Source: Effrenium voratum
Taxonomy: Eukaryota > Sar > Dinophyceae > Suessiales > Symbiodiniaceae
Length of the DNA: 64,000 nt
Direction of reading: 5' to 3'
Assembly (NCBI GenBank): GCA_963377175.1
Contig: CAUJNA010001238.1
Coordinates: 1 to 64,000, forward strand
The notes under the pieces: model-generated
The model's database searches: none
The model's input: the letters and a program-made list of their open reading frames with translations, nothing else
Told to the model about the DNA's origin: nothing
Shown here: piece after piece, positions 4,370-46,465 of the stretch
Layout of the letters: each line of letters opens with the position of its first letter
Numbering within the stretch: the first letter of the stretch is position 1
Program-made: the position numbers and the translations under genes

Positions 4370-6634
4370 ATTATTTCATGGGGGGGACGGCTCAAGTAGA
4401 TTGTAGCCAAGAGAATTTAGTATTTTAAATTCACAGAACCATCGCACAAAGATTAAGCAGTGTTTATGCTACAAAACAAGAATTAGCAGACACAGCAGGA
4501 TCATTAGGTGGAGGTTATACAATTGAAGAAGTTGATGCTCTTATTTTAGCACAAAAAATAAGATAGATGCAAACATATCAGCAATATCAGGAATTAATGC
4601 AACATCAACAACAATGTTTGATGAACAAATAAATCAAAATATAGCAATCACAAGCAACCTTAATAATATAACAGCGAAAGGGATATTATTACACCGTCAA
4701 CTTTACTTACTACCGACGATATCAGGCATATAATGTTACAATTTTTTTATACCGTTTGATTTCTACGTGTAATATAATTTAGTTCAAAGAGTTTACTATA
4801 TTAACAGGATCACAATAATACATTGAGAATTCACATGTTTAGTAGTAATTAACATAACCATGTTAGCAACATCGCAATACAAATACAAACGGAACTTGCA
4901 ATATTAAAGAACCACTGTAGGTCCAGTAATATGACATTTTGGTTAATAGCCATCAAAAACTCGCGTTACCTTCTCCTTATATTTCATTAATTGACGCAAA
5001 TACTTAATAACATAAAGGACACGGAAACACAATAACACCCATTCTTACAGATATAGCAGATTTACAAGCAGGAGCGGGCGCTTCTTGGACTACAGCTGAA
5101 AAAACAACTATTCAAGCGGATGTATCAACATTATATACAAACGATACTAATTTATTCAATACTAACACTGCTTACAGTAATACATTTGCTTCAATTATAT
5201 CAGATAATAATATACAAGATGTATTAATAACTCAAAATTCAAACACAATAAATAGTTTAATATCAGCAGATTTACAAAAGTTAGATAAAACAATCACAAC
5301 TGCGCAAACGGTAAACTCTCCATTAATACTTAGTTTATACTAATCCAATTTTTAGAATTCAAGATGCTGTAAGTAACCAACGCTTAGAATTTAAAAGAGG
5401 TTGTCAGTTAGACTCTTACCAGGGGTTAGAAGGCGCTACTCCTTATAGATTATGGTTAGGATGGAATACAGGCGATGTCATTATTGGAAGACCTAATAAT
5501 GCTTCAAGAATTACAATTAATGGTAATGTTCATACTTCATACAATTTTGCTCAAGCGCACGGAACATCATATTTTGAAGGTTCTGTTTATATGAAAGGTA
5601 ATTTATATGTAAATAATGATTTCTCAACAGATATTAAAACTAAAATTGATAATTTAGACAGTGCGTTAACTCCGTATTTAGAAACATACACTCCCTCGGG
5701 AACAGAAGGTTTTTATATTCATCATCCTAATTTTGTTGCTTGTAGTATTGGCGATATTACAAATTCTTCTAACCAATATTTTATGTGCGACGGTGCTGTG
5801 TCAAAAACCATATTCAATAAACCAGTTGATATATTAGGTGATCTATATACAAACGGCGATTTAACAATGGTTTCTGGAAAAAAGATTGAAGTCAATCAAG
5901 TTCAATCAGTATCAGGAAATACTTTATTATTACAAAATTCACCGAGTGGCAATGTTCAATTTGGCAACACATCAAAACTAATAATTGATAATGCTGAAAT
6001 GTATGTCGATACAAATGATTTAATAATTAGGAATAGCAACACTTCAAACTCTATTAATTTGGTTGTTGGATTGTCTGCAACATACGCTGATAATAAAATT
6101 ATTTTGAATAGTGGAAGCAATAGCGAATTGCGAGGCGATTGGACTATTGACGGCGATATGACTTTTGGAATTGCTCATAAAATCAATTTGAGACATTTAA
6201 ATAGTGATGCTGTTTTAAGATTAGAAGCATCAACAACTATTGATAGTTATATTGATGGCACTAAATATTTACAATTGGATGATACTCAATTTTCATCATT
6301 TAACGGATTTAATTTAAGTAGCGATCTTCGTTTAAAAACCGAAATAGAAGATATTGAAGACGATTGTATAGAAACTGTTAAAAATATTAAAGTAAAAACA
6401 TTTATTAAAAATCATAAAACAAAAAAACATGAAATTGGATTTATAGCACAACACTGTCAAGAATTTACTGATTCGAAATTTGGCATTGTGAATGATAATG
6501 GAGATTACTTGACCATGAGTTATGATAAAATGACCGCCGTACTTTGGCGTTCCCTACAAACTATGATTAATCGTGTAGAGTATTTGGAAAATGAAGTTTT
6601 TAAAAAGAAAAAGAAAAAAGACAAGTCTAAATAA
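4370..6634 (+). pseudogene. Fiber-like protein with peptidase S74 chaperone domain, broken copy
   Basis: This is the sister of the fiber gene at 27470. The 5' third (4384-5320) is damaged by frameshifts and by an unrelated insert near 4700-4960, but LQAGAGASW and the coiled, Asn/Thr-rich repeats survive. From 5327 one frame is open to 6634. It has its own central segment (about 5345-5690) unlike the right copy, then a C-terminal region nearly identical to it. The end holds the S74 signature SSDLRLKTEIEDIED (about 6317-6360), whose Ser and Lys are the expected autoproteolytic dyad, and a C-terminal helix with a Lys-rich tail. In phage fibers this domain trimerises the fiber and then cuts itself off. 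The product would be a host-attachment spike. Confidence 0.75.
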
Positions 6635-8311: not shown

Positions 8312-8339
8312 AATGTAAAAAAATTTCACCTTTATTAAT

Positions 8340-9191
8340 ATGGCAAATATTAATAAAAATGATATAATTAGTAAAATCTATTATGATAGATCAGGATACG
8401 GAAGTATCACAACAACCTATAAGGATGCTAAACAAAAGGAACAAAGCATAACCTTAAACGATGTTAAAGAGTGGTTTCAACAGAACATAGAACAGAAGAA
8501 GCAATTAAGAGGCAACAATTCATTTATTGCTCCACATCCATATTTTGAATTTCAATTAGATTTATTTTTTTTTATTAATGACATACCCAATCAAAAATTT
8601 AAAGTAGGGATGGTTTTAATTGATATATTTACCAGATACTCTACAGTAATACCTATTAAATCAAAACAACCACCTGACATATTAGCGGGAGTAATGGAAG
8701 GGATGCAGAAAATGAAAGGCACACCAGAAATTATTTATAGCGACGAGGAAGGCAGTTTATATAATAAAACAGTTGAATATTATTTCAATTAAGAAGGAAT
8801 AGAATTATACCGCACAAGAGGACATCCTAATTTTGCAGAACGTTTTATACGCACCTACAAAGATATGTTATATAAAAGGGTTGAAAAAGATGAAAAAGAA
8901 GGAAAGGAAAATATACAATGGATAGATTATAATTTTGAAATATTCATAACTTATAATAATAAAATGGAACATTCAAGCATAGGAATGACACCAGCGGAAG
9001 CATTGAAGGAGAAAAACAATTATAAAGTAAAAATGAACATGGCAACCGAAGCAACCAGAACCCGTAAATACCCTGAAATTAACATAGGTAACGAAGTGAA
9101 GATTTACAGAAAGAAAGCAATAACTGAAAAAGAAAGGAGTAGCAATTGGTTACCTACGAAAATAAAGTTGAAAGGATTGAAAAAAAGTTAG
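8340..9191 (+). pseudogene. RVE-type (retroviral-like) integrase of the left element
   Basis: Polinton integrases insert the linear genome into host DNA with a DDE catalytic triad. Here the first Asp is in QLDLFF, the second in IYSDEEGS, and the Glu in FAERFIRTYKD, in the expected order and spacing. An N-terminal helical region precedes them, and a C-terminal basic beta-rich region (NIGNEVKIYRKKA) follows, as in the Polinton chromo/SH3-like tail. A TAA at 8790-8792 interrupts the frame between the second Asp and the Glu. The next codons continue without shift as EGIELYRTRGHP, matching DEGIQNYKTRGHP of the right copy, so it is a single nonsense change. The right copy (34116) lacks everything after the Glu region, so this copy is the only one showing the C-terminus. 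Confidence 0.8.
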
Positions 9192-9320: not shown

Positions 9321-9350
9321 TTTTTATAATATAAATATATAGATTATAGT

Positions 9351-12300
9351 ATGAGTAAGTTTTTACAACGTAATATCAACGAGTTAAATAAACTCAAAAG
9401 AAATTCAACACAGAACGCAAATAATGCAACTAAAAAAAGGGTTGATGAGATCGTTAAACTTTATACTGAAAGGAAGCTATCAAATGTAGCAACTGCAGAA
9501 AATTATATCAAAGGTTTAACATCTACTGATAAAAAGGTTTATGACAAAGCATTTCAAAAATACAAAGATAATATCAAAAAGATCAAGGATACAAAACCAC
9601 TAAATCAAAGAATGACAGAAACAAGATCGAAGAAGGAAGAAGAAGAAGGCAAAGAATATAAGAAAAGAGGAAGGAAGAAGAGAAATACATATTTTGTTAT
9701 GTATGACCTTTATATAATTGGTGATAAGGAGAAAATGAAATCAAAACCCGCTTTTAAAGCATTTGGTAAGTATTATTATCTTTGGAACTATGAGCGATTA
9801 AGTGCTACAGTTCAAATAGTAGGAGAAGAATTTCCTAAGGAATTTATCCGCAAGAGAATTTTGAAAAAAACAGGTGTTTCGATGGATACTGATTTTGGAG
9901 AGACGGAACAAATAAATCCAGAATTTACAAAAATAATAAAAATAATGAAAAACGATGAGGAGTTTGCCAAACACGTGGAACATTTAGAAAATCAGGAATA
10001 TGGCTTAGATGGTATAAAAATATTGTCCGTGGAGATGATGAAAAAATCAAGTAAAAAGTTTGATACATTAGCAGAAAATTTAAGAGATTCATCTAACGTA
10101 TCCATTTACCATACATATATACACACACCTTTAAAGATGAGTGAGGACACTATACAAAAGGCAATTAAACAATGCAATTATATTAAAAATGAATGTTGGA
10201 TAAATTCATTAACTGATTTTTACAGTGATACAATCATGAATGAAAGAACCCGCAACAGACTAACCAGAGATAAAATTATTGAAATCATAGGTAGGAATGA
10301 TTTTAAGGAAGTAGGAGCAACCATTCAAGAAATGGAAGCAGTATTTAAGCAGTTTAATATTCAAGTTAGAATTTTTAATTTTGTAAATGAACTTATTTAC
10401 AACTATAACCCAGAAAAAAAGAAACCATCATATTAAAACATTTTACGCTATGGTGAAAAATAACCATATCTATACATTAAACCACGATTAAGCAAAATAC
10501 AACAAAAACAATTAGTATCAAAACTACCCACTATAAAGGCACACACTGATAAGTTGTATAAATGAAAGAGAGGAACCACCGCAAAACAAAATGATTAAAT
10601 GTATAGATGATATACTTAAAATTAAAACTGATGATAAAACAAAGGAAGTATATTTAGCGCCTGAAAATAATAATTTGGCAGAAATATTTTTCCAGTTGAT
10701 GAATATTGGATATGAACCCAGAATTAAATACACAGGTATTATTGATGAAATTAGAGTCAAATTTAACAAGATAACATATATCATAAAGACTCAAAATTTA
10801 ATTAAATCATCTAGCGATGCTTGGATTGCAGTAAGTAATGAAACTACGTACAACAATATGAATAAAGCAATGTTTAATTTTAATAAATCTCTATTTGTTT
10901 TGTCTCACAAAACTTTTTATAATGACATTGATATAAAAATATTAAATGAAACAAGGACTGTAGCACCTTCGGGATTATTATGGGATAAATTTAGTTTAAT
11001 GCGTAAAACTGAAATCGATGAAAAAAAACGCATTTACAAAAGGTTTCATAGATATTACTGAAGTACCAGTTTTTAATCAGTTTGACAATTGGAAAGAATA
11101 CAATGATGCAGTTAAAATTGATGAACTCCACGATCTAACATTATATTATCTTGAAGTTAAATATCCATGCGTACCAGATGAATGTCGCATGAAAAATATT
11201 AAACATCTTTTGGTTGAACGTTTAAATTTTAAATCAAAAGAAGAAGTTGACGAATTCATACCGACAAAAACGTTACGGGGGAACACAGCGGGCTTAATGT
11301 TTAATAAAAAAAATATAATTTAGTTTATGGGAAGTTTTTGAAAAAGTTTACTAATCAATATAATATTAAAGTATTATAGTATAAACAACCTTCATTTATT
11401 CATAAAACAAAATATAAACATATGGTTAATGAACTTTGGAAAACTGTTATAGATGAAGATGATGAAACAGAAGATAAACTGAGAAAACAATAATAGGAAA
11501 TGTCAATTTTGGATTATTAGAGAAAGGAGGTGCTACCGCTCATCAAAGCATTTTATTTAAGAGTATTGATGAAGCAATCCATTATCAAACAGAATACGGA
11601 GGCAAAATTCATAAGTTGTCACAGCTTCGCTCTGAACGGGTTGATACATCAACCCTTTCACAGCTTCGCCACGAAGAGGGTGAAGAAGAAGGAGATATAA
11701 AAGCATCATATTATATATTAAATTTGAAGGATAAAGCAGTATTAAGAAACGGCTATAGATCGATTAAAGAACTACTCTTGCAACATCATAATTTTGAAAT
11801 GAACCAAGATTTTTACAAATTAATAATCAATAATATTAATGTATGTAGTGTAAAAACCGATGCTTTTGTAATTGATTCATACAATGTAGAGAAAGCAAAG
11901 CAATTATTAGAATTTCATAATGATATAGGAGGTTGGAAGGTTTCAAAACAAGGCGAGGAAATTGATTTTCCTACGGTAAAATATGAAGTTGCTAAGAATG
12001 ATCTAATAAAAATACCAGTTCATGAAAGTAAAACTATTGATATTAAAGATGAATACGACACTGATAACATTATAGAGATTGTTAAACAGAATAACCCTAT
12101 TATGATCAGAGGCGAACTACCGGGCACAGGAAAATCATATATATGTCAAAAAATGGTTGATAAAAAATATAAGGTAATATTTATTTGTCCTACTAATAAA
12201 TTATTACAGGCATTTGAAGGTGAAGCAATGACTATAAATAAGTTTTTTGGAATAAACTACGGCGATGCAAAATTAGAACCATTTGATTTTACAGAATTTG

Positions 12301-13383
12301 ATGTAATCGTATTTGATGAAATTTATTTCAGTAATTTGAATACATATTGGAGAATAAAACAATTCGTAGAGCAGAATAAGCACAACAAAATCATAATAGC
12401 AACAGGAGACACCAAGCAATTAAAACCAGTTTCAAGAGATAACAAATACTCGAGACTATGAATTATATACTGATAATATTATAGATAACATTTTTGAATA
12501 TAATATTTTGTTAAAAGAATGTAAGAGACTTAACACACAGGAAGATAAGGATAAACTAAGAAATATTAAATTTGATATTTTTGAAAATAAATTACCTATT
12601 ATGAAAGTTATTGAAAAATATTTCGAATATATAACTGACATAAGCAATTCTAACAACAACATAGCATTTTTAAATACAACTTGTAAAAATGTCTCAAATG
12701 AAATTAGAAAATTAGAAAATAGAAAAGATGAATACGAAGTAGGCGAATTTTTAACATGTAGGGAATATACTAAAACTAAAACATCAGTGTTTAATGTAAA
12801 TTTCAAATATAAAATAGTTCATATCGGAAGCGATGGAATATTTACATTAAAGAATGTCAAAACCGAAATTTTACAATCCGTAGAAGTTGCTAAAATAAGA
12901 AGCAATTTTATATTTGCATATTGCTCAACTTGTCATTCTGCCCAAGGCAGTAGCATTGATGATACCATAACAATTTTTGATTATAACCTTTTTTTGGTAA
13001 AGAATTATCCAGAATGGATATGGACTGCAATTACAAGGTGTAGAGATTTAAACAAAGTTAAATTTTATAAATATACAAAAGATATTGATGATGTATTTAA
13101 TCAAAAATGTATTATGAGTTATTTTGAAAGGAAAATATTAAATTACAAAGAACAGGACAGGAAAGCAAAAAGAACCATATCTAAAGAAGGTTATGTAAAT
13201 ACACAGTGGTTTTTAGACAATATAAATAATCAATGCAATTACTGCGGATGCGGTTTTTCTATGGATATGAAAAATGGAAATATAATGACAAATCTAACAG
13301 CGCAACGTAAATCAAACGAGTTATCGCACGAACTGAATAATATTATTCCTTACTGTGTTAGGTGCAATTGTAGTTGTAAATGA
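9351..13383 (+). pseudogene. DNA polymerase B / SF1 helicase fusion, left copy, several frameshifts
   Basis: This is the sister of the gene at 30098. Segments in order: a Lys-rich helical N-terminus; a protease-like module with NECWINSL and, after a shift in an A7 run at 10424, KNNHIYTLNHD; polymerase motifs with DLTLYYLE (motif A-like), NVNFGLLEK (motif B-like) and VKTDAFVID (motif C-like); a helicase with Walker A GTGKS, Walker B VIVFDEI, GDTKQL, CHSAQGSS and AITRCRDLNKV; and a C-terminal Cys-rich domain (CNYCGCGF ... CVRCN). Breaks lie at about 10424, 10490, 11021 (an A8 run), 11320-11500 and 12440. The region around 11120-11320 is longer than in the right copy and keeps a more canonical motif A. 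Inactive as it stands unless the shifts are sequencing errors. Confidence 0.75.
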
Positions 13384-19093: not shown

Positions 19094-19144
19094 ATAAATA
19101 ATAAATATAAAATATTTTCTAAATAACTTTGAAATTATTTTATT

Positions 19145-19907
19145 ATGTCTGATGTTCCAATAATAAAACCAATAAACATAACTGAATATGAATTCAAACA
19201 ATCTAAATATGAGCACGTGCCAAAATTACCATTTAGAAGTATTATAGTTGCTTCTTCGACAGGCGGCAAAACGGTCTTGGTTCAGAACCTTATCTTAAAT
19301 GTTTATAGAAATTCATTTGCAAGAATATCTATATTTTCCCCCAGCGTTCATAATGACCCAACCTTTACAGAAGTTAAAAAATATCAGGGATGAATTGCAC
19401 GTGGATGATGAAAAAGAACAAATTTATTTTGATAATTATAATCCAAATGATTTAGAAAATGTAATTGAAAGACAGAAGAAAATAATTAATTATATGAAAT
19501 CTAAAAAGATAAAGAAACTACATTCAATATTAATCGTTATAGACGATCATGCCGACGATCCTAAATTTGTTAGATATAGTAAATTATTACATGGGTTATT
19601 TACAAGAGGTAGGCACGATGCAGTAAGCGTAATTTGTTCAACACAGAAATATACTGCGTTGGCGCCTATCATTCGTTTAAATGCCAGTTCATTATATATT
19701 TTTAGGTTGAAAAATGCCAGTGAATTAATGAGTTTTATTGAAGAAAATAGCGCCATTGTTGACAAACAGCAATTATTAGATATGTATCATCAAGCAGTGA
19801 GTTTTGCTCCATATTCTTTTTTCTACGTGAATATGAATTCAAAAGACATTAACAACATGTTTCATATCAATTTTGAACAGGCATTTCAAATTACAAATGA
19901 TGAATAA
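19145..19907 (+). pseudogene. A32-type genome-packaging ATPase, one frameshift
   Basis: The start MSDVPIIKPINITEYEF leads to Walker A ASSTGGKT (about residues 38-45) and IFSPSVHND. The frame then ends at KKYQG*, but a one-base shift in the run GTTAAAAAATATC (about 19376-19381) continues it as IRDELHVDDEKEQ. Walker B LIVIDDHADD, the TRGRHDA loop and the C-terminal NMFHINFEQAF follow. About 253 residues in total is normal for Polinton-like packaging ATPases. It drives translocation of the viral genome into the capsid. It is transcribed divergently from the small gene at 18911-19093, with only 51 bp between the two starts. Its GC-rich relative is at 1459-2277. Confidence 0.85.
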
Positions 19908-22758: not shown

Positions 22759-24339
22759 TTAATCATAGAGCAGACTTCCGGATTCGCGTAATTCCAGAAC
22801 AGACTCCGAAATCATATGCACAAACACCTCGCGCACATCTTCATCAGTTGTTAGTGCTCTATTACTTCCTTTCAGTTTGAATACTAACAGACCACCCATC
22901 TTTGTATTCTGTCCAGTAAAATTAGTGTCTGCCATTTTCTCAAACGAAATCCCAATAACGAACTTGTCTTCTCTGTAGCGTTTATATGAAATGCTAAAGG
23001 CATCTTGGTCAGGGTTCAAATAGTGTAATGTTCGTCTTAAATAATATGCAGTTTCTGCCATTGATTGACATTCAAACTCTGGATATTTTTATTATTAATT
23101 TGTAATTGCCACGTTAAGTTTAAATCTGAATTTTGAAAGCCCTTTCCTTGGTATGTCGCGCGATCAGCTCCATCTGGATCAGGACCATCAAAAATACGAG
23201 AATTAATCATCGGATTGTAAAAATAATTCCATCGCTTGTAAATGTAGTTGTCTTGTCTGTAATAATCAGTATTTTGTGGGTCAGTTCCTGCTCTTGGTGG
23301 GCGATATAGTGTAATGAAACAACCATTCAATTTAGAAGCGGGTTTAACAATGTTCATATTAATTTCATTTCCTCCCGCGTTGAATGATTGTGTCATAGTG
23401 TGATACATTGGAAATACTAATTTTAAACTTTGACCTTCTAACAAATGTTTCACTATATTATTGTTAACCGTGTTGTCCAATTGTATTACCTCAGCTCTAA
23501 TGATTACGTTATTTAATTCCCACTGTGTTGAGGTCTCCAGTTGTGAAATAATAACCTTTGGCATCATTTTGAGTGTTGGCATCAGTTACGGTAAAAGGCG
23601 TAACTACTGGTATATGTTCATCTGATACAATTGTAAATTCCAGTTCAATTGGAGCATAACGAAGAGGTAAATAATAATTGCTTTCTAACAGTCCGCATAC
23701 TGGTTTATGTCCTAACCTCATATAACCATTAGCGCCGGGAATTCCTGCTACTGAATGGCGAGTATATCGCGATGTTAAGTCTCCCCAATTGTTATGGTCT
23801 TTTGTAGTTGAAACTGCAACTGCCTCAGGGTCGGCAGTGGGATTGGTTCGTGTATTGACATCAATGAATTCTGCCAATCCAGTAGCATATGTGTGTCGCC
23901 AGTCATCATCCCAACGAGGATTGGCGCCCCCCTCTAAATCGTCCATATCTCTGGCATCTTGACTTTTAAAAGAATTATACAATTCGCAATGTCTATTATA
24001 TTCAATAATATCCTGAACTTGCTGACCTCCAACAGTGCATCTGTAACGACTGAAGAAGGATGATAAATTACCTAACGGTCGTAAAAAATGACTTCGTGTT
24101 CCGTCGGTGTTTTGAAGATTGGCAAATAAACGAATAGAAGATAAATCAATATATGTGTTGTCTTCACCTGTTATATGAAATCTAATATTTTTGTTTCCTG
24201 CATTTGGATTATAGACATTGCTACCTGATGGAAAATAATTAACGTGTCGTCGGTATGTGATATATTGTGCTGTTTCTGGAAGTCCAAAATTTAGCGAGTT
24301 AATCATTGTAGTTTCTGATTCGGCGATTATATTATCCAT
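22759..24339 (-). pseudogene. Major capsid protein (double jelly-roll type), two frameshifts
   Basis: Three consecutive reading frames make one protein of about 525 residues: 24339 to about 23530, about 23530 to 23060, and about 23055 to 22759. The first begins MDNIIAESETTMINSLNFGL and has long beta-strand segments (IRFHITGEDNTYIDLSSIRL, then FFSRYRCTVGGQQVQD). The second holds LEGQSLKLVFPMYHT and CFITLYRPPRAG. The third ends with DKFVIGISFEKMADTNFTG and RALTTDEDVREVFVHM. The conserved C-terminal block and the size are those of Polinton-like major capsid proteins, which trimerise into capsomers. Both breaks are one-base shifts, at about 23530 and 23050. A double error in assembly would hide an intact gene. 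Confidence 0.75.
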
Positions 24340-24377
24340 TACTTATATATGATAAACTTAGATTTTATTTTTTATTT

Positions 24378-27469: not shown

Positions 27470-29595
27470 ATGTTTTCAACATTATCACTAGACGGCTCAA
27501 GTAGAATTGTAGCAAGTGAATTAGTATTAATAAATTCAACAGAACCATCGACATTGAGCAGTGTTTATGCTACAAAACAAGAATTAGCAGACACAGCAGG
27601 ATCATTAGGTGGAGGTTATACAATTGAAGAAGTTGATGTTCTTATTTTCGCACAGAAAAATAAGATAGATGCCAATATTTTAGATATTACTGAATTAAAC
27701 GCAACATCAACAACTATGTTTAATGAACAAGTAAATCAAAACGCAACAATTACAAGCAACTTTAATAATATAACAGCACACGGATTAACCATAACTTCAA
27801 TACTACCGACTATATCAGCAAATACAATTAAACTTGATTCTAATTTTAATAACATTAGTTCGAATACACATTTAATCAGTAATTTAAATGCTACAATAAC
27901 ATCGCATATATCATTAATTGACACAAACATTAATAACATAACAGGACACGGAAACACAATAACAACCATTCTTACAGATATAGCAGATTTACAAGCAGGA
28001 GCGGGAGCTTCTTGGACTACAGCTGAAAAAACAACTATTCAAGCAGATGTATCAACATTATATACAAACGATACTAATTTATTCAATACTAACACTGCTT
28101 ACAGTAATACATTTGCTTCAATTATATCAGATAATAATATACAAGATGTATTAATAACTCAAAATTCAAACACAATAAACAGTTTAATATCAGCAGATTT
28201 ACAAAAGTTAGATAAAATAGACACTAACGCTCAATCAGTAGCAGGCGCTGTTAATTTTAGCGATAATGCAACCTTACATAGTGATTTGAATATGCTTACT
28301 ACTGGTTCTATAATATGTAATAAGTTTAGCTGTACCCCTTCACCAAATTTAGGACTACAAATGACTTTTCAAATGTTTAATCGTGAATTTAATATTAATA
28401 GAGATGGTAGAATGTGGATGTCAAGCTCAGGAGGCGTTTGGGAAACGCAAATCGGAGATGCTAATGTTGGTCGTGTATGGATAAAAGATCGATTCGGTTT
28501 AGGGGCAGTTGGCGTTGTTAATTATGTTTTAAATTGTGCTGGGCAAGCTCGATTTACAAGCGCTGTCCAGTTTATAGGAACAGACAGTGCAATAAGTCTT
28601 AACAATGGTTCATATTTAAATTTTAATAATAATGGTTCAATACGAAGATATACACCAGATGCTACAGAAGGTTTATATATGGTGCATAATAATTTTGTTG
28701 CTGTTAGTGTTGGCGATATTACTAATTCTTCTAATCAATATTTTATGTGCGACGGTGCTGTATCAAAAACCATATTCAATAAACCAGTTGATGTATTAGG
28801 TGATGTATATACAAATGGCGATTTAACAATGGTTTCTGGTAAAAAGATTGAAGTCAATCAAGTTCAGTCTGTATCAGGAAATACTTTATTATTACAAAAT
28901 TCACCGAGTGGCAATGTTCAGTTTGGCAACACATCAAAACTAATAATTGATAATGCTGAAATGTATGTCGATACAAATGATTTAATAATTAGGAATAGCA
29001 ACACTTCAAACTCTATTAATTTGGTTGTTGGATTATCTACAACATATGCTGATAATAAAATTATTTTGAATAGTGGAAGTAATAGCGAATTACGAGGCGA
29101 CTGGACTATTGACGGTGATATGACTTTTGGAATTGCTCATAAAATCAATTTGAGACATTTAAATAGTGATGCTGTTTTAAGATTAGAAGCATCAACAACT
29201 ATTGATAGTTATATTGATGGCACTAAATATTTACAATTGGATGATACTCAATTTTCATCATTTAACGGATTTAATTTAAGTAGCGATAAGAGACTGAAAG
29301 ATAATATAGAAGATGTAGAAGATGATACTGTAAATATGGTAAAAAACATTAAGATTAAAACATTTGTTAAGAATCAAAAACCAGAAAAACTGAATTAGGA
29401 TGGATTGCTCAAGATGTTCAACAATACACATATCCGAAATATAATATTGTAAATGATTCGGGAGAATACTTAACGATGTGTTATGATCGTATGGCTTGTA
29501 TTAGTTGGGATGCTTTATCAAAACTAATCGATCGTGTAGAGTATTTGGAAAATGAAGTTTTTAAAAAGAAAAAGAAAAAAGACAAGTCGAAATAA
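27470..29595 (+). pseudogene. Fiber-like protein with peptidase S74 chaperone domain
   Basis: The start MFSTLSLDGSSRIVASELVL is followed by a long Asn/Thr/Ile-rich coiled region of phage-fiber type (repeats such as NNITGHGNTITTIL). Next comes a central beta-rich segment unique to this copy (about 28235-28670), then a region almost identical to the left copy, with SSDKRLKDNIEDVED at about 29278. Ser and Lys in this motif are the autocleavage dyad of intramolecular chaperones. The frame stops at 29398. A one-base shift in GAAAAAC (29385-29389) restores ELGWIAQDVQQY, and the C-terminal helix with FKKKKKKDKSK ends at 29595, as in the left copy. A trimeric receptor-binding spike of about 708 residues is the likely product. 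Confidence 0.8.
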
Positions 29596-30008: not shown

Positions 30009-30097
30009 ATTTTATAGGAAATTGATTTAAATATGAATTCTTCCTTAAATTACACCTAAAGAAAAATAATATTAATAATTAATATCTAAATTACTTT

Positions 30098-33000
30098 ATG
30101 TCATTGTCAAAAACTATAAGAAATAACATCAGGTCATTAAATTCAAGAATTGATAGGTTGGCAGGCGATACCAAGGAAAAAGCCACCGAATTGAGAGATC
30201 TATATGAACAGCGAAAAATTGCACAGTTTAGCACCGCATCAACTATTATTGATGGGTTTATCAATGCCACCACCCCAAAGGAAAAAAAGAAATGGGACAA
30301 AAAATACGACGATGTGATCCAAAACAACCGTATAAATCTACCGTTGAGTGTTAGGATGAAACGAAGCACTGTAACTAACATTGTAAAGCAGTCTAAGGCG
30401 AACGATGAATCGTGGACATTAGACGTCATGCTTTACCGCGAAGGTGTTAGGGAAGGTGACAACAAAAAGCCGGCTTTCACATACAAAACAGAATACGGAG
30501 AACTCAAATATTACCCCATAACAAAGGACGGTAAGGAGAGAACATACACCGTTAACACCAGCACAAATATAGACGAGTCTGTAGGCAAACGAATTGTAAA
30601 AACCTAGGATTATGATCTATTCAGAAAGTTCATTGTAACACTTGCCCAAGATCCAGAATTTGAAACAATGCTAAATATTATGGGTGGGTATGTTGGCGTT
30701 GATCAGAAAAAAACAATCGAGATCAACAAGAAGAAGAGGTTAACCAAGAAGACTAACGCTGTGGCTTACAACGTAGAGACGGGGTATATTGGCGCCTTGA
30801 AGATCTTGAGGGCCAGAAAGGTGGAAGGTGGACAGCCTAGTAATCCACGACAAGCCAACCTGAGAAGATCGGAAAACATCAGTATGTATAATACTTACAT
30901 GTATACCGAATTGGATACATCGAAAGAAACATTTATGGAAGCAATCCAGAAAGGTAATTATGTAGACAATCAATGTTGGTTGAATACACTCACTGATTAT
31001 TATAAAGATACCCTAATGAACAACAAGAAGAAAGAACCAATGTCGCGAGGGATGATACTAAAACTAATAAATAAAACAGAACAGGAATTCACAGAGTCGG
31101 GGGCGTCAATTGATGACATGATCCCGGTATTTATAAAATACAGAATGCGAGTGAGAATAATAGACCAACTGGGCAAAATCATTTATTCTTATTCACCAGA
31201 GATGTTTGACCGCAACATCAGAGCCTTTTATGCAAGGGTCAAAAATAATCATTTCTACACACTGAATAATAATATCAAAAGATTGGAACAAAAACAAAAT
31301 ACTGATGATGCATTTGTAGTAAAGGCACGGCCCGACTATCATATAAGTGATAGAGAGAAGCCATCGATTTGCAAAATGTTTTCTACTATTGATGACATTT
31401 TTGAAATGGTTAAGGCAACAACTGCAAACAGAACCGACAAACAGGAAAAGCACTTTTTAGATTTAGTTCATAGAGAGAATGATCTAAATAAATTATTTTG
31501 CGATTTCAAAAATATCGGGTATGAATGCAAGATTGTTCACAAAGCAGGGACTATTTCAGAATTGAGGGCGGGCTTCAATAATGTATATCTAAACATTAGG
31601 TCACAGTGTCTGATAGACGACCAGGTCAATAGTGACATCACGGTAGACAGAGAAACGGTTTACAACAATATGACTGAAGCGATGTTTACATTCAAAAAGA
31701 AATTATTCAATCCAAATCACAAGTCTTATTACAGTCCTACCGATATACAAGTTTTAAATAGTTATAGAACCATCGTCCCACAAGGCGAGTTATTCAAGGG
31801 CTTGGATAAATTGGATGTTCCAAAACAGGAGATCGACATGAACAAAGCGTTTACAGATGCATTTAATACGATTACCAGAATAGGAGTTTTTAATCAGTTT
31901 GATAATTGGAAAGCTTACAATAGTAAATGTAAGATCAAGGATGTAAATATATATTTGGTAAAAGCAGAACTGACACATCGCAATCTGTTTTTTAATAATG
32001 ATACTAATATAGTTTATGGTATGTTTCTTAAGCATTTTACGCCACTTGTTGCATCTGGCGAGTTGTCCATTACTCACTACAAACAGCCACATTTCGTCCA
32101 CAAGGTAGATAATAAAATGTTGGTTGAGGAACTCTGGGGAAAGCGAATAAGCGAAAATATTGAAGAAGACAAGGCAATTAAAAAAATAATAGCCAACTCG
32201 ATTTTTGGCTTGTTGGAAAAAAGTAAGAACAGTAGTCAGAGATCATTCGTTTTTAATGATCTCAATGAGGCGATCAGCCTTCAGGCAGATGCAGGGGGGA
32301 AGTTAAACATGATGAGCAGGAATACTGCCAAGTGGGTTGAGGAATTTGATGATAATGGCATGTGGTGCCGTGATAGAGAAGTATCTGAACAAAACGACAA
32401 TTTATATTATATTCTGAATGTGGTTGATAGGTGCGAGTTGTCCAATGGGTTTCGTTTTATTAAAGAAATGCTTTTGCAGTATCATAATTTCAAAATGCAA
32501 TGCGCGTATCAAAAATTGACAGAGAACAATGTTAAGGTATTGAGTGTCAAATGCGACGCTTTTGTCGTGGACTGTTCGGGTTTTAATAAGTTTGGTTTGA
32601 GAAAGACTCAGCAGTTGCTAGATTTTCACGATGGGATCGGTGGGTGGAAATTAGCCAAGACTCACGATGAGATCCATCATACAGGAAAGCAGTTGTATGA
32701 ACAGAAGAAGTGTGAATATGTTGATATCCCGATTGTCAAAAGTAAGAGAGTTAACATCATTAATGAGTATGATGAAAATGAATTGGTTGAACTTGTTGAG
32801 AAATATAGGTGCTTGATGATTAAGGCTAAATTCGCAGGAGCGGGCAAGTCCACCATCTGCAAGAACATGGAGAGACTCAAGGGTTATAAAGTGTTGTTCG
32901 TGGTTCCTACCAATAATCTGGGTTTGGAGTGCGAAGTGGAAAGCGTCACTGTAAATAAATTCTTCAGTATAGCAGTCAATGACGAGAAGCTAGATAAATA

Positions 33001-34083
33001 CGATCATTCGATGTTTGATGTCATTGTGTTTGATGAGATTTGTTTTAATAATACCTTTGTATTGGCAAAAATTAAGGGCTTTGTAGAGCAACATAGGGCT
33101 AATAAAATCATATTAGCTACTGGTGACGCCAAGCAATTGAGCCCCATAAAAGCACTGACTAACACTAAGAAACACGAGATTTATATGAATGAATGTATTG
33201 ATAGCATTTTTCCTCATCATTTGTTTTTGGAAGAGTGCAAGCGATTGAAGACTCAGGAGGACAAGGATAAACTTAAAAGCATTTATGCCGACATCTTTGA
33301 GCATGAGTTGTCTCTACATGATGTCATCAATAAGTATTTTAAATATACTGATGACATCACAGGAACAGAAAGCAATGTCGCATATTTAAATAACACTTGT
33401 AGAGAGGTTTCAAGGCAGATCAGAAAACGACAGGGCAAACAAAGTGAGTTTGAAGTCGGCGAGATCATGATATGCAGAGAGTATAGGAAGACAAAAACCT
33501 ATAAGTTAAATGTGAATTTTAGGTATGAGATAATTAATATTTCCGATCCTTGGATTACCATTGCTAATATCAAAACACGAGAAGAGATTACATTACATAT
33601 TGGTATCTTGAGAAGTCATTTTATCTTTGCCTTCTGTTATACTTGTCATTCTGTTCAGGGGTGTTCCATTGATGACGATGTCACCATTTTTGATTGGAAC
33701 CATCATCTGATAACTCGCGAGTGGCTTTGGACGGGAATCACTCGGGCAAGGGATTTAAACAAAGTAAAATTTTACACATACAGAAGTGATTTAAATGAAG
33801 AGTTTAACGCAAAATGCATTATGAATTACTTTGATAGAAAGGTGTTAGCACACAAGGGTGTATTCCAAAAGAAAATTATGTAGATGCCGAATGGTTGAAG
33901 GACAATGTCAACGGAAAGTGTGCAAATTGTGGCTGTGGCTTCGTGTTGTCAATGGATTCTGGCAATATAAACTCTAATTTGACATGTCAAAGGTTGTGCA
34001 ATGATCTTCCCCATACAAAGGATAATGTCATTGCCTTCTGTGCTTCTTGTAATAGATGCTTCAGTGATAAAATAACATATTGA
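30098..34083 (+). pseudogene. Protease-like / DNA polymerase B / SF1 helicase / zinc fusion protein
   Basis: One gene of about 1,328 codons with only two lesions: an in-frame TAG at 30605-30607 and a one-base shift near 33850. Domains in order: a helical basic N-terminus; a module with NQCWLNTLTDYYKD and KNNHFYTLN, resembling an OTU/papain-type Cys-His pair; polymerase motifs NIYLVKA (A-like), KKIIANSIFGLLEK (B-like) and VKCDAFVVD (C-like); a helicase with GAGKST, VIVFDEI, ATGDAKQLSPI, CHSVQGCS and GITRARDLNKV, typical of SF1B (Pif1/RecD-like); and a Cys-rich end CANCGCGF ... CASCN of HNH or treble-clef type. It would copy the viral genome, probably by protein priming, and unwind it in one chain. 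The unbroken 1071-residue frame from 30668 argues that it was recently functional. Confidence 0.75.
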
Positions 34084-34115
34084 TATTTATTTTATAGTAT
34101 TATATATATATATAT

Positions 34116-34691
34116 ATGAGTGAAAAAGACAAGATAATCAGTGAGATCTACTACGATCAGGCTGGGTTTGGTAGCATCGCCACCACTTACAAAGATGCAA
34201 AAAAGAAAGATGCATCCATAACAATGCAAGATGTCAAGGAGTGGTTTCAAGAGAACGTGGAACGGAAAAAACAACTGTCTGGATACAATTCGTTTATTGC
34301 CCCTGATATCAACTTTGAATATCAATTGGATCTGTTTTTTATATCAAAAATGATTTAGACAATCAAAAATATAGGATAGGCTTATTGCTTATTGATGTAT
34401 TTTCCCGCAAAGCCGTGGTGGTGCCTATTGCATCCAAGCAACCTGCCGACATCACGGCTGGGATCATGGAGGCATTAAACAAAATGGGAGGGGAACCCAA
34501 ATTAATTTATTCGGATGACGAGGGGAGTCTCAATACCCAAGATCTTGTCGATTTTTTCAAGGACGAAGGGATCCAAAACTATAAAACACGAGGGCACCCC
34601 CATTTCGCCGAGCGTTTCATTCGCACGTTCAAGGACATGCTTTTCAAGAGGGTTGATGCAGACGAGAAAAAGGGAAAGGTTAATATACAAT
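34116..34691 (+). pseudogene. RVE-type integrase, frameshifted and truncated by satellite DNA
   Basis: The start MSEKDKIISEIYYDQAGFGS matches the left integrase. QLDLFF (first Asp) is followed by a stop, but a shift in the T6 run at 34335-34340 restores NDLDNQKYRIGLLLIDVFSR. LIYSDDEGS (second Asp) and FAERFIRTFKD (Glu) are present. Homology to the left copy ends at AATATACAATG (34691): where the left gene goes on with GGATAGATTATAAT, this one runs into the 48-bp satellite. The C-terminal target-binding tail and the viral terminus are therefore missing, so this element can no longer integrate by itself. The cut is a clean junction, as expected from recombination or end-joining rather than gradual decay. 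Confidence 0.8.
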
Positions 34692-37415
34692 GCTCGTGAG
34701 AGGCCGAAACCGCTCCCGAGCGAGACGGGCGCGGGGGACGCTCGTGACGCCCCCGAGCGAGACGGGCCTTAAACCGCCCCCGAGCGAGACTGGCGCGGCG
34801 GACGCTCGTGACAAGCGGAAACCGCCCGCGAGCGAGACTGGCGCTGGGGACGCTTGTCGTGAGAGGCCGAAACCGCCCCCGAGCGAGACGGTCGCGGGGG
34901 ACGCTAGTGACAGGCCGAAACCGCCCCCGAGCGAGACCTGCGCGGTGGACGCTCGTGACATGCGGAAACCGCCCGCGAGCGAGACTGGCGCGGTGGACGC
35001 TTGTGACAAGCGGAAATCGCCCCCCGAGCGAGACTGGCGCGGGGCTCGTGACAGGCCGAAACCGCCCCCGAGCGAGACGGGCGCGGGGGACGCTTGTGAC
35101 AGGCCGAAACCGCCCCCGAGAGCGAGACGGGCGCGGGACACTCGTGACAGGCCGAAACCGCCCCCGAGCGAGACTGGCGCGGTGGACGCTCGTGACAAGC
35201 GGAAACCGCCCGCGAGCGAGACTGGCGCGGGGGACGCTTGTGAGAGGCCGAAACCGCCTCCGAGCGAGACGGGCACGGGGGACGCTCGTGACAGGCCGAA
35301 ACCGCCCCCGAGCGAGACTGGCGCGGTGGACGCTGGTGACATGCGGAAACCGCCCGCGAGCGAGACTGGCGCGGTGGACGCTCGTGACAAGCGGAAACCG
35401 CCCCCGAGCAAGACGGGTGCAAGGGACGCTCGTGACAGGCCGAAACCGCCCCCGAGCGAGACGGGCGCGGGGGACGCTCGTGACAGGCCGAAACCGCTCC
35501 CGAGCGAGACTGGCACGGCGGACGCTCGTGACATGCGGAAACGCCCGCGAGCGAGACTGGCGCGGTGGACGCTCGTGACATGCGGAAATTTAACCGCCCT
35601 CAAGCGAGACTGGCGCGGTGGACGCTCGTGACATGCGGAAACTGCCCGCGAGCGAGACTGGTGCGTTGGACGCTTGTGACATGCGGAAACCGCCCGCGAG
35701 CGAGACTGGCCGCTCGTGACATGCGGAAACCGCCCTCGAGCGAGACTGGCGCGGTGGACGCTCGTGACATGCGGAAACCGCCCGCTGGCGCGGTGGACGC
35801 TCGTGACATGCGGAAACCGCCCTGGAGCGGTGGACGCTCGTGACATGCGGAAACCGCCCGTGAGCGAGACTGGCGCGGTGGACGCTCGTGACATGCGGAA
35901 ACCGCCCGCGAGCGAGACTGGCGCAGTGGACGCTCGTGACATGCGGAAACCGCCCGCGAGCGAGACTGGCGCGGTGGACGCTCGTGACATGCGGAAACCG
36001 CCCGCGAGCGAGACTGGCGCGGTGGACGCTCGTGACATGCGGAAACCGCCCGCGAGCGAGACTGGCGCGGTGGACGCTCGTGACATGCGGAAACCGCCCG
36101 CGAGCGAGACTGGCGCGGTGGACGCCCATGACAGGCGCAAACGGCATGCGAGGCGCGGTGGACGCTCGTGGACCGCCCGCGAGCGAGACTGGCGCGGTGG
36201 ACGCTCGTGACAGGCGGAAACCGCCCGCGAGCGAGACTGGCGCGGTGGACGCTCGTGAGATGCTCGTGACAGGCGGAAACCGCCCGCGAGCGAGACTGGC
36301 GCAGTGGACTCTCGTGACAGGCGGAAACCGCCCGTGAGCCAGACTGGAGCGGTGGACGCACGTGACATGCGGAAACTGCCCCCGAGCGAGACTGGCGCGG
36401 GGGACGCTCGTGTCGTGACATGCGGAAACCGGCGCGGTGGAGGCTCGTGACATGCGGAAGCCGCCCCCGAGCGAGACTGGCGCGGTGGACGCTTGTGACA
36501 TGCGGAAACCGCCCGCGAGCGAGACTGGCGCGGTGGACGCTCGTGACACGCGGAAACCGCCCGGGAGCGAGACTGGCGCGGTGGACGCTCGTGACATGCG
36601 GAAACCGCCCGCGAGCGAGACTGGCGCGGTGGACGCTCGTGACATGCGGAAACCGCCCGCGAGCGAGACTGGCGCTGGACGCTCGTGACATGCGGAAACC
36701 GCCCGCGAGCGAGACTGGCGCGGTGGACGCTCGTGACATGCGGAAACCGCCCGCGAGCGAGACTGGCGCGGTGGACGCTCGTGACATGCGGAAACCGCCC
36801 GCGAGCGAGACTGGCGCGGTGGACGCTCGTGACATGCGGAAACCGCCTGCGAGCGAGACTGGCACGGTGGACGCTTGTGACATTCGGAAACCGCCCGCGA
36901 GCGAGGCTGGCGCGGACGCTCGTGACATGCGGAAACCGCCCGCGAGCGAGACTGGCGCGGTGGACGCTCGTGACAGGCGGAAACCGCCCGCAAGCAAGAC
37001 TGGCGCGGTGGACGCTCGTGACCTGCGGAAACCGCCCGCGAGCGAGACTGGCGCGGTGGACGCTCGTGACATGCGGAAACCGCCTGCGAGCGAGACTGGC
37101 GCAGTGGACGCTCGTGAAAGGCGGACGAGCGAGACTGGCGCGGTGGACGCTCGTGACCCTCGGAAACCGCCCGCGAGCGAGACTGGCGCAGTGGACGCTC
37201 GTGACATGCGGAAACCGCCCGCGAGCGAGACTGGCGCGGTGGACGCTCGTGACATGCGGAAATCACTCGCGGGCAAGACTGGCGCGGTGGACGCTCGCAT
37301 GCGGAAACCGCCCGCGAGCAAGACTGGCACGGTGGACGCTCGTGACACTCCGGCGAGCAAGACTGGCGCGGTGGACGCTCGTGACATGCGGCAACCGCCA
37401 CGTGCGCGGCTCCAT
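34692..37415. repeat. 48-bp satellite array, about 55 units
   Basis: The unit contains GCGAGCGAGACTGGCGCGG, TGGACGCTCGTGACATG and CGGAAACCGCCC. It is 48 bp, so 16 codons, and lacks stop codons in most frames. This produces very long open frames on both strands (up to about 700 codons on the minus strand) that translate only the repeat. Copies in the first third are more variable (GGCCGAAACCGCCCCCGAG variant), those from 35880 on nearly uniform. The array joins the truncated integrase at 34691. Confidence 0.95.
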
Positions 37416-41110: not shown

Positions 41111-42060
41111 ACCCCCCCCTATAGAGGAAAGTGGTTTGCTCCTTTACATCTTCCTGAGTCGATTTGAATTTGTGTTGGGCGCCAAGCTGTGTTGGCGGAC
41201 CCTAAACCCTAAATTCTCTCTTCAATGGAGATTCAAACCTTAATGCATCAGTGGCCCTGAAATTGACGGGGTCTCGTTGGACTCCTCTTCTCCGAAGGAG
41301 GATTCTGTCCTTTGGGGAAGGAAGGTCTCAGGAATTGCTTTGGTTCTGTCCAGCTCAAAAACCTTCCTTGGCTTTCTCCCCGAAGAGGATTCTGTTCTTT
41401 GGGAAGGGAAAGGTCTTAGGAAATGCCTTGGCTCTGTCCCGGGCTTCTTCACTTTGTCCTGGGCCAGCTCCAAAAGCTGTTATTTAGCTCCTTTCTGGGT
41501 TTGGCCAGCCTCATATGGCGCAATACAAAAATTGCAACTCCAGCTTGAAAGGAAGAGATCTGGTCAGTTGGCTCCTGGCCTTCGCCCGGCCATAAACTGT
41601 TCGTGCGGCGCAACGTAAAGATCTGGTCATTTAGGTGAAATGTAGAGATCTGGTGAGTTGCCTCCTTTCCGGGCTTCGCTAGCCGCTGATAAACTGTTCA
41701 TACGGCGCAGTGTAAAAACAGCCAGCCAAGCTCAAAATGTAAAGATCTGGTCATTTGGCTGCTTTCTGGGCTGGGCCAGCCGCTGATGAATTGTTCATAT
41801 GGCGCAATTTAAAGACTGGCCCTCCAAGCTCGAGCAGTAGAGATCTGGCCATTTGTTGCTGTTCGAAGAGTTTATCTTGCGGAGCAGGATACAATTAGCG
41901 ACCGGGCTTGCGATGACTTCCAGAGTTGAGGAGTTTATCGCTCGCAACCCCCGTCTTGAAATTTGGAGAAACCGAAGAACTCGCCTATGTTGTGGGTAAC
42001 CAGTCTGGGTGGGTGGGAAAGCCAACAAGACTTTTCTCAATCCATTTGATATACCCTCTA
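41111..42060. repeat. Dispersed repeat with CAGCCGCTGATAAAC words
   Basis: The blocks GAGGATTCTGT...GGGAAAGGTCT and CCAGCCGCTGATAAACTGTTCATACGG recur several times here and again at about 46880-47070. Short telomere-like bits (CCCTAAACCCTAAATTC, about 41200) are included. No gene is supported. Confidence 0.6.
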
Positions 42061-43640
42061 GACCCTAAACCCTAAACCCTAAACCCTAAACTTAAAGCTC
42101 GCGACGACTGACCGCTTGCTTAGAGCGACATGGAGTCGTGAGCGCACGGCGCGCTTAGCGCCCGGGCAAGAGCTCCGAGCTATTGCCAATAAAGCGCCAG
42201 CATGCAGCTGCCCCAAGGGCCTCCCTTCTCTTGGGACCGTGCCTACAGGCACAAAATATGCGAAGCAATATTTTAACCTAGGTCCAAGACCCTAACCTGG
42301 CCTTGAAGACCGCGTCGAAGCTCTCCTTGATAAAACGGCCATCGGCCTTGATAAAACGGCCATTGGCCTTGCGATTTGCCATGTACCTTGACAATTAGCA
42401 TTGATAAAATGGCCATTGGCCTTTGTAAACTTGATAAAATTGCCATTGAAGCGGCCGTCCGGGCTGGAAATGGCTTGGCCCGGCCGCTGATAACTCTTTA
42501 GACGGGGTCATATGAATCTGCCCATCCGTAGCCCAAATCAGGAGACCTGGCCATTGGGCTGCCCCTCGGCAAAAAATCCTTGATAACATCAAAGGGTCTG
42601 CCCTTTCGGCCTAGCGACAAACCTGTTCCGGCCGTTTTCCTTGCAAAGCTTTTCCTTATAAGGCAATCACAAAATCGTTGAAGCCGTGGCCTGCGCTATG
42701 GCCCCCAACGCTCGCGACAAAATCGCAGAAGCCGCGCCCTGAGCGATGGCCCCTAACTGATCCGTCGCTGCCGCTTTGCGCTGCGCTTCCAACGCAGCCA
42801 GCGAGCGGACAACGGCTTGTTGCCAGCCTGTGCGCCAGCAAACGGCCGTCAGCTCGTTGCCGACCTCTTGCTTGCCTTCGAAGCAGATCGCCCGCGCGTC
42901 GCATCCTTTCCGCGCGCGACTGCCCCAGAGCAAAGCTTTGGTCCAACCGTCGCAGCTGCGCCCTCAAGCGGAGAACGTATCTGCAACTCCTAGCGTTGAA
43001 ATCGCTGCAGCCTTGGCCTCAACTATGGCCCATCGCTCAAAGTTGTTACAGCCGTCGGCCCCTCGCCGGCCTCAAGCAGACACGAAGAGCGCGTGTGGCT
43101 CCCAAGCGCGCGCAACTTTGGGTTCAAGCCAGTGCAGCTGCAACTTTCACGCGGCAAACGCTTCTGCGACTCAGCTCGCTCCAGCTGCAGCGCTCGGCTA
43201 GCGCTAGCGAGGAAATCGCTGCAGCCTTCGCTTGAACTATCCTCCGCCGCTTGCTCGCGGCGAAATTGCCACAGCCAGCCGTCGACCCCTCGCCGGCCTG
43301 CGCGAGCCTCGCGCAGCTGCGACACACGCGCCCACGTCTCCTTAGGATGCGGTGTCAATCGGCCAAGCAACGTGGCCGCCGCGCGCGACTCTAGGAGCTC
43401 AAGCCGTCGCAGATTGAGGATGCGAACTTCAAGCGTTTGCGCTTTTGCGCGATCAAGCGCTTCCCGTATCACTCGCCCGCCGGGGTCCAAATTAAAACCC
43501 TAAACCCTAAAAGATTTGTCTCTGGGCGGTATTGGGGTGGGTTGAAGCAGCCGCCTCGGCGCGCCGCCCCGCGACCCTCTCTGGGTCGAGGCGCGCCGCT
43601 TCCGAGAGCAAACCCTAAACCCTAAACCTAAACCGTAAAC
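42060..43640. repeat. Segmental duplication unit A, bounded by CCCTAAA repeats
   Basis: The unit starts with (CCCTAAA)4 at 42063-42091, goes on with CTTAAAGCTCGCGACGACTG, contains GATAAAACGGCC words and a GC-rich block (GAAATCGCTGCAGCC type), then AAGATTTGTCTCTGGGCGG, and ends in CCCTAAA copies near 43612-43650. Unit B at 44710-46465 repeats it in the same order and orientation. Long open frames exist on both strands but change between the two copies, so I call no gene. Confidence 0.8.
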
Positions 43641-43689
43641 CCTAAACCTCTATTCTCTACTCTAGTATATTTATTTAAATGTTTGCCCT

Positions 43690-44709: not shown

Positions 44710-46465
44710 AATCCTGTGAACCCTAAACCCTAAACCCTAAACCCTAAACCCTAAACCCTAAACCCTAAACCCTAAACTTAAAGCTCGCGACGACTGACCG
44801 CTCGCTTAGAGCGACATGGAGTCGTGAGCGCACGGCGCGCTTAGCGCCCGGGCAAGAGCTCCGAGCTATTGCCGATAAAGCGCCAGCAGCTATGCAGCTG
44901 CCCCAAGGGCCTCCCTTCTCTTGGGACCGTGCCTGCAGGCACATAATATGCGAAGCAATATTATATTACCCTAAAACCTAGGTCCTAGACCCTAACCTGG
45001 CTCTAAAGTTGCGCCCTTGATAAAACGGCCATTGGCCTTGATAAAACGGCCATTGGCTTTGACGCAATGCCCGCCATTGGCCTTGATAAAACGGCCATCG
45101 GCGGCCATTGCCTTCGCGCCCCTTGATAAAACGGCCATTGGCCTTGATAAAATGGCCATTGGCATTGACGCAACGCCCGTGGGCCTTGATGAAATGGCTA
45201 TCGGCCTTGATAAAACGGCCATCGGCCTGGCCAGCGCCCTTCACGACATGGCATTGGCTTTAATACGGCCGTTGGTTTTGACTGGAAATGGCTTGGCCCG
45301 CCTGCTGATAAATTCTTTACATGAGTCTGGCCATGCAAAAAATCCTTAAAGAAGTGGCCATTGGCCTCGCATTGCCGTTCTTGATACACGTGCCATCGCT
45401 TGTGGGGCCGGCTTTCAATCCAAAGCTTTTCCTCACAAGGCAAGGCTTTGTCCCAGCGCGCCCGCGACGAACTCGCTGAAGCCGTGGCCTGCGCTATGGC
45501 CCCCAACGCTCGCGATGAAATCGCAGAAGCCGTGCTCTGAACGATGGCCCCTAACTGCCCCGTTGACGCAGCCGCGCGCTGCGCTTCCAACGCAGCCAGC
45601 GAACAGACGACGGCTTTTTCTGTGTTCTTACGAAGGCGCAGCCCGCGGCGAGTCAACCAAGCAACGTGGCCAGCGCGCGCGACTGCCCCAGAGCAAGGCT
45701 CCAGCCGTCGCAGCTGCGCCTTCAAGCGCCTTCAAGCGCAGGATGTATCTGCAACTCCTAGCGATGAAATCGCTGCAGCCGTGGCCTTCACTATGGCCAA
45801 ACGCTTGCTCGAAGTCGTTACAGCCGTCGGCTCCGCGCCGGTCTTTGCAAGCCTCAAGCAGAGCAGCTTCGCGTCTCCGTGCGAAGACCCCTTGCGAAGC
45901 TAAGAGTCGCGACCGCGGCAGTCGAGCGCAGTGAAGCTTTGGGCTCAAGCCGGCGCAGCTGCAACTTTGACAAGCGTTTCTGCGACTCAACTTGATCCAG
46001 CTGCAGCGCTCGACTAGTGCCAGCGAAAATCGCTGCAGCCTTCGCCTGAACTATCCCCCGCCGCTGCTAGCGGCAAAATCGCCGCAGCCAGCTGCGCAAG
46101 CCTCAAGCATCTGCGTTACAAGCGCCCGCGTCTTAGGAAATGGTGCGAATAACGTGCCCGGCGCTTGCAACTCTTTCGTCGCAGAATAAAGATGCGAATT
46201 TCAAGCGTTTGCGCTGCGGGCTTGTTGTCTTCGCGCGATCAAGCGCTTCCCTTTATCACTCGCCCTGCCGGGCTCCAAAATCAAACCCTAAACCCCAAAA
46301 GATTTGTCTCTGGGCGGTATTGGGGTGGGTTGAAGCAGCCGCCTCGGCGCGCCGCCCCGCGACCCTCTGGGTCGAGGCGCGCCGAGGGCAAACCCTAAAC
46401 CCTAAACCCTAAACCCTAAACCCTAAACCCTAAACCCGAAACCCTAAACCCTAAACCACCCTAAA
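44710..46465. repeat. Segmental duplication unit B, bounded by CCCTAAA arrays
   Basis: This is the second copy of unit A: (CCCTAAA)9 at about 44710-44775, then the same CTTAAAGCTCGCGACGACTG start, more GATAAAACGGCCATTGGCC copies than unit A, the same GC-rich block, AAGATTTGTCTCTGGGCGG at about 46298, and a final CCCTAAA array at 46392-46465. The arrays are interstitial telomere-type repeats of the TTTAGGG class. Confidence 0.8.

Follow-up and report, generated by a model that had tools for sequence, protein, structure and literature searches.

Genes at the locus

Positions 1 to 64,000 of contig CAUJNA010001238.1 (assembly GCA_963377175.1) of the dinoflagellate Effrenium voratum, the 64,000-nucleotide stretch analysed here and called the window, carry a gene that joins a protein-primed-type family B DNA polymerase (PolB) region to a superfamily 1B (SF1B) helicase. 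The gene lies in an AT-rich stretch from ~4.1 to 34.7 kb (GC 26-38% in 2-kb blocks, tandem array left out). A GC-rich 61-bp tandem array interrupts it at 14.25-15.75 kb, and it ends at the array of a 48-bp satellite that starts at 34.77 kb. This stretch consists of two incomplete elements, left and right. The core open reading frame (ORF) of the gene first reported belongs to the right element, a decayed small DNA virus within GC-rich host DNA, where the following parts were distinguished.

30098..30607, + strand: N-terminal part of the fusion protein, a helical bundle and the start of an alpha/beta domain, at the terminal-protein position; in-frame stop at 30605-30607
30608..33883, + strand: core ORF with linker, Cys/His module, polymerase and helicase; 1091 codons from stop to stop
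30932..31297, + strand: Cys/His module at the vOTU protease position; Cys codon 30974-30976, His codon 31250-31252; outer limits approximate
31355..32695, + strand: family B polymerase region of the protein-primed type, with the motif A Asp codon at 31835, motif B at 32180-32209 and motif C at 32546-32557
32756..33790, + strand: SF1B helicase (S1H) of the RecD2/Pif1/Dda type
33838..34083, + strand: C-terminal zinc-binding, EndoVII/HNH-like tail in a frame different from that of the core ORF; phrog_1035 endonuclease VII match, 2.5e-4

A first-pass annotation had described positions 30098-34083 as one gene that starts with the Cys/His module. Its unbroken core of 1071 codons is indeed there, from the ATG at 30668 to 33883, and all polymerase and helicase motifs that it quoted are present. 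However, the stop at 30605-30607 separates the core from ORF 30083-30607, which lies directly upstream in the same frame, and the Cys cluster at 33838-34083 is read in another frame. Nor does the protein begin with the Cys/His module: the core ORF has this Cys at residue 123, and ~170 more residues are encoded upstream. This N-terminal part matches the N-terminus of related proteins, e.g. residues 4-166 of P0012 with 32% identity. Relatives such as P0001 and P0003 carry the tail and the helicase in one chain, and the single-chain architecture is therefore real despite the broken copy in the window. Both fusion copies of the window are broken and probably inactive. The earlier observation is sound in substance, but wrong on the open frame and on what the protein starts with.

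A conserved protein family

When 5.8 billion proteins were searched, 148 relatives of the fusion protein were found at E <= 1e-3 among 5188 candidates; 120 of them were listed, and the identities and tail counts given here rest on those 120. Many of the listed relatives cover 90-99% of the query, and many are 1250-1350 residues long. With so many relatives of this coverage a chance fusion is excluded, and the first-pass annotation had correctly recognised four modules, in this order, as an ancestral union. The clusters represented by P0001 and P0063 contain 191 and 325 sequences, respectively. Compared with P0001, the right copy showed 97% identity across 765 residues. The same fusion was also found on a single IMG/VR contig, L001, at 36% identity and distributed over several ORFs, with an rve integrase 2.1 kb downstream. 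Single-sequence queries of IMG/VR with the relative P0075 and with the capsid-like protein gave no match. For one relative of 993 residues, P0101, an S74 chaperone domain (PF13884) is also given, which could be another fusion or stem from an error in the gene model.

Conservation was read from a main alignment of 87 rows, drawn from 86 of the 120 listed relatives and picked by eye for length and spread; the other alignments comprised 38, 47 and 9 relatives. The Cys and His of the Cys/His module were present in all ungapped rows (68/68 and 73/73), as was the motif A Asp in all 87 rows. Motif B retained its Gly in 87/87 and its Asn in 79/87 rows and had Ile or Val at the Ser position in 81/87. 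In motif C of the right copy (32546-32557) a Lys stands in place of the first Asp, and the same Lys was found in 86/87 rows; the other Asp was kept in 85/87. No acidic pair of the exonuclease (Exo) type was conserved.

Polymerase and helicase folds

Polymerase and helicase share one open frame and were modelled as one chain. In a structure comparison of this model, residues 250-696 matched phi29 polymerase, the polymerase found in the structure searches, and the helicase followed at 717-1061. These fold matches of a predicted structure support the identification as PolB plus SF1B helicase, which had been proposed from the motifs, and show that the part ahead of the helicase, at least in the window protein, is a PolB palm behind the Cys/His module. 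The polymerase region was not recognised by Pfam, by PHROGs or by phmmer and profile searches of the PDB. Pfam recognises little of the family beyond the helicase: 30 families were matched in the 39 family members scanned, and the 25 shown included neither PolB nor OTU. The best local hhalign alignment, not significant on its own, paired SVKCDA of the window protein with YCDTDS and its IGGWK with LGYWA, and the motif register of the 87-row alignment agrees with this phi29 alignment.

Placement among known systems

Tlr1-like helicases of polinton-like viruses (PLVs) and transpovirons are described as proteins with variable N-terminal domains followed by vOTU, PALM and S1H, ending in a GIY-YIG or HNH domain (PMC11071308; statements on published systems here and below refer to excerpts of the papers cited). 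The group is also given as TP-vOTU-PALM-S1H, TP being the terminal protein, in this 2024 description (PMC11071308). The likeness to these helicases (PMC11071308; PMC3671162) lies in the module order, in the retained motif A and in the loss of the first motif C Asp. In the family studied here the SF1 helicase is C-terminal to the PolB palm in one chain, motifs A and B are kept with the first motif C Asp replaced, further globular domains, one of them alpha/beta, precede the vOTU position, and a nuclease module, EndoVII/HNH-like by profile, stands at the C-terminus. Since layout and motif signature are common to both, the protein is one more member of a kind already known. In our reading, with a probability of roughly 0.85, a polinton-like virus integrated here and is now decaying, and the gene encodes its replication protein, which is of the Tlr1-like helicase (pPolB-S1H) type. 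The architecture had been taken as new, a claim that does not hold, as the same layout had already been described for PLVs and transpovirons (PMC11071308), an outcome that the first-pass annotation had itself named as refuting it. A distinct dinoflagellate virus lineage, also proposed, is not established; the search for a spliced-leader pattern found nothing.

Several points weigh against this placement. It was made by comparing layout and motifs with the published description of the Tlr1-like helicases, and common descent with Tlr1, TvV-S1 and the transpovirons is putative. A remnant exonuclease fold may be present in the model, the phi29 structural match beginning at phi29 residue 3; the published group, by contrast, is described as lacking the exonuclease. 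Comparison by hhalign with the phi29, PRD1 and Cp-1 polymerases was not significant for the three sub-ranges used (P 0.095-0.13; one reversed and six shuffled controls, 0.23-0.76), and the whole-profile comparison with the same polymerases selected the wrong region. The OTU fold was not matched either, with no Pfam OTU at E <= 10 and structural lists filled by helicase and polymerase. For the N-terminal domains, the model of the left N-terminal ORF comprised a helical bundle (10-112) and an alpha/beta domain (118-237) at a predicted template modelling score (pTM) of 0.44, and fold searches with it gave no convincing known fold.

Among individual systems, the Tlr1 element of Tetrahymena likewise carries an rve integrase, but Tlr1 itself has a GIY-YIG tail, whereas the window protein has an EndoVII/HNH-like tail and its family mostly Gln at the presumed Asp position. 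Polinton/Maverick pPolB, given as TP-vOTU-EXO-PALM, shares the terminal-protein and vOTU positions and the palm type with the present protein, but differs in having an exonuclease domain and no helicase in the chain (PMC11071308). HNH-helicase fusions have been reported in PLVs of Rhodomonas, Cryptomonas and Symbiodinium (PMC12220804). In cluster C1 of R. lacustris the HNH-helicase lies immediately upstream of the rve integrase, as in our right element; in L001 a gap of 2.1 kb intervenes. Unlike here, however, the HNH domain of these fusions is described as attached 'N-terminally', and the excerpt counts the proteins as helicases without protease and palm (PMC12220804). A capsid group of dinoflagellates and helicases fused to an unknown domain have been reported as well (PMC10120064). 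Our search of one literature library found no paper pairing 'Tlr1-like helicase' with 'dinoflagellate', and none of the titles and abstract openings that it listed described precisely this family.

A phage origin of the whole fusion, suggested by the 986 positions of PHROG 325, was rejected after a tblastn search of phages. With the window ORF, 11 phage records were matched, all within the helicase (query 740-1049). With P0075 there were 12, eight within the helicase and four starting at residue 776, just before motif C; the one of these four that was inspected is a 645-residue RecD-like protein with ~150 residues ahead of the match, too short for the fusion.

Proposed mechanism and alternative readings

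While the modules, their order and conservation and the polymerase and helicase folds were shown, function is read from this anatomy. From their position, the N-terminal domains would serve as terminal protein and prime replication at the ends of linear viral DNA. A vOTU-like Cys/His protease would then cut the primer part off the enzyme, and the palm would extend the DNA with one Asp from motif A and one from motif C. The SF1B helicase in the same chain could unwind the DNA ahead of the palm, standing where other such enzymes have an active proofreading exonuclease. The tail with its zinc-binding module, probably derived from an EndoVII/HNH nuclease, may now only bind DNA, and the adjoining rve integrase would insert the product into the host genome. 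The self-contained replisome predicted by the first-pass annotation is plausible. A more specific proposal, tentative and to our minds somewhat doubtful, is that a large clade of integrated viruses, for the most part unannotated, replicates by means of this enzyme: one chain would prime on itself, cut its primer loose, unwind and synthesise, with one motif C Asp and without a working exonuclease, the former nuclease tail being kept as a DNA-holding clamp after loss of its presumed catalytic Asp. If true, such an enzyme would explain the 'helicase fused to an unknown domain' in protist integrated viruses that seem to have no polymerase. The 87-row alignment can serve annotators as a profile, and the near-full-length natural relatives are material for testing polymerisation by a palm with one motif C Asp.

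Alternatively, the palm might be catalytically dead and the protein a replicative helicase with a scaffolding or primer-binding polymerase remnant, another polymerase copying the genome. An inactivated polymerase was the reading of 2016, as summarised in PMC11071308, and both the Lys in motif C (86/87) and the unusual motif B with Ile or Val at the Ser position (81/87) would fit it. It hardly explains why the motif A Asp and the other motif C Asp are so well kept (87/87 and 85/87), and no second polymerase was seen among the ORFs scanned, which were part of all ORFs. For Tlr1-like helicases, which have lost the same Asp, activity has nevertheless been argued, and PolBs of Mavirus, pipolin and some plasmids without this Asp are stated to be active (PMC11071308). 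We consider a dead palm unlikely.

Far less probable still is membership in the type of OmPLV Helicase SF1-pPolB from the dinoflagellate Oxyrrhis marina (PMC12721341), which also unites an SF1 helicase with a protein-primed PolB in a single, very large protein encoded by an integrated element. There the helicase is N-terminal and a complete pPolB with exonuclease C-terminal, whereas here polymerase 250-696 precedes helicase 717-1061, and this reversed order refutes membership. The exonuclease motifs are complete in OmPLV, in contrast to the present family, where no Exo-type acidic pair is conserved. According to the excerpt OmPLV has a tyrosine recombinase, and no rve integrase was detected in it (PMC12721341), while an rve integrase is found here. 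A Helitron/Helentron-type Rep-helicase with an OTU domain would likewise join a Cys protease to a Pif1-like helicase, but is just as improbable given the phi29 match of residues 250-696, the lack of Rep/HUH or Helitron Pfam matches in the fusion pieces at E <= 1 and among the families shown for the 39 members, and the packaging and capsid-like genes nearby.

The zinc-binding tail

The Cys cluster at the C-terminus, earlier called treble-clef-like, is supported at the level of profile matches, phrog_1035 endonuclease VII being found at 2.5e-4 in the right copy and 2.1e-7 in the last piece of the left copy; Pfam HNH scored 0.14, below cut-off. In LDR-type HNH nucleases the Asp preceding the Arg is presumed to be catalytic. 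At this position, before the Arg of ...TAxR..., 66 of 68 readable tails among the listed relatives had Gln and two, from divergent relatives, had Asp, the other 52 being unclassified; the L001 tail has Asp. Because of the Gln at the presumed catalytic position, the zinc fold may have persisted in most readable tails while cleavage was lost.

The left element

The left element has the same module order, as the first-pass annotation had stated; its fusion gene consists of five ORF pieces, from 9330 to 13383, which together with the integrase are:

8319..9191, + strand: rve-type integrase upstream of the fusion gene, ORFs 8319-8792 and 8793-9191; weak Pfam matches to rve (0.042) and rve_3 (0.0052)
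9330..10436, + strand: N-terminal domains and first half of the Cys/His module; M at 9351
10537..11323, + strand: Cys/His module to past motif A, in overlapping frames 10537-11061 and 11000-11323; 89% and 75% identity to P0006
11478..12461, + strand: polymerase motifs B and C and first helicase half; PHROG 325 Dda-like helicase 1e-12; 44% identity to the right copy, 85% to P0006
12424..13383, + strand: second helicase half and zinc-binding tail in one frame; PHROG 325 3.5e-11, PHROG 1035 2.1e-7; 96.5% identity to P0006

Among the listed relatives, the four later pieces were 75-97% identical to P0006 and the first piece was closest to P0007 (52%). Compared piece by piece at the protein level, left and right fusion proteins were merely 27-56% identical, and judged from this divergence the two copies look like members of two lineages side by side rather than a recent duplication. 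The integrase pieces of the two elements were 51-76% identical.

Neighbouring genes and flanking DNA

34098..34699, + strand: right rve-type integrase, immediately following the fusion gene; two overlapping frames; PF00665 1.8e-5, below curated cut-off
19133..19907, + strand: A32-like packaging ATPase of the right element, in two overlapping frames; Pox_A32 3.7e-6, above curated cut-off; P-loop piece 0.012
22759..24342, - strand: major-capsid-like gene of the right element, in three frames, 24342-23509, 23585-23037 and 23088-22759
34771-37399: GC-rich 48-bp satellite array of ~56 copies, beginning just past the integrase cut-off point

The right integrase is truncated at ~34.7 kb, where the satellite starts. 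Relative to the fusion gene, the integrase is upstream in the left element, and downstream in the right element and in L001. An A32/FtsK-type packaging ATPase, as expected of a polinton-like virus, is present (Pox_A32 match). The gene at 22759..24342 is presumably capsid-like; it had no Pfam match and no relevant PDB match. Its first piece had 214 relatives at E <= 1e-3, and the second and third pieces were recognised by eye in an alignment of 13 of 120 listed relatives. No terminal inverted repeats of at least 40 nt were found at the element ends within 3500-35000, the right end being cut by the satellite, and tRNA, Rfam and spliced-leader pattern searches gave no match.

Both elements carry a fibre-like gene of the same type, with an S74 chaperone domain at 3e-9 in the left and at 6.7e-4, just under cut-off, in the right. 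These genes (left 5056-6632, right 27983-29593) are mosaic: the DNA is near-identical between 5056-5295 and 27983-28222 (234/240) and between 5733-6332 and 28695-29294 (574/600), while in the middle (~5296-5678) 167 of 375 aligned bases agree, and in the 240 bases that follow 6332, at the S74 domain, 160 of 239. Such near-identical DNA beside replication proteins that are 27-56% identical suggests that a fibre cassette has been exchanged.

The long open frames on both strands of the 48-bp array are simple repeats. In the GC-rich flank, telomere-like 7-base repeats (AAACCCT, AACCCTA, CTAAACC) form internal arrays at 44719-44777, 46390-46457, 43610-43649 and 42058-42091. At the right end of the window, a host-side ORF (62803-63972, - strand) encodes a Tpt1/KptA RNA 2'-phosphotransferase domain (E 5.2e-8).
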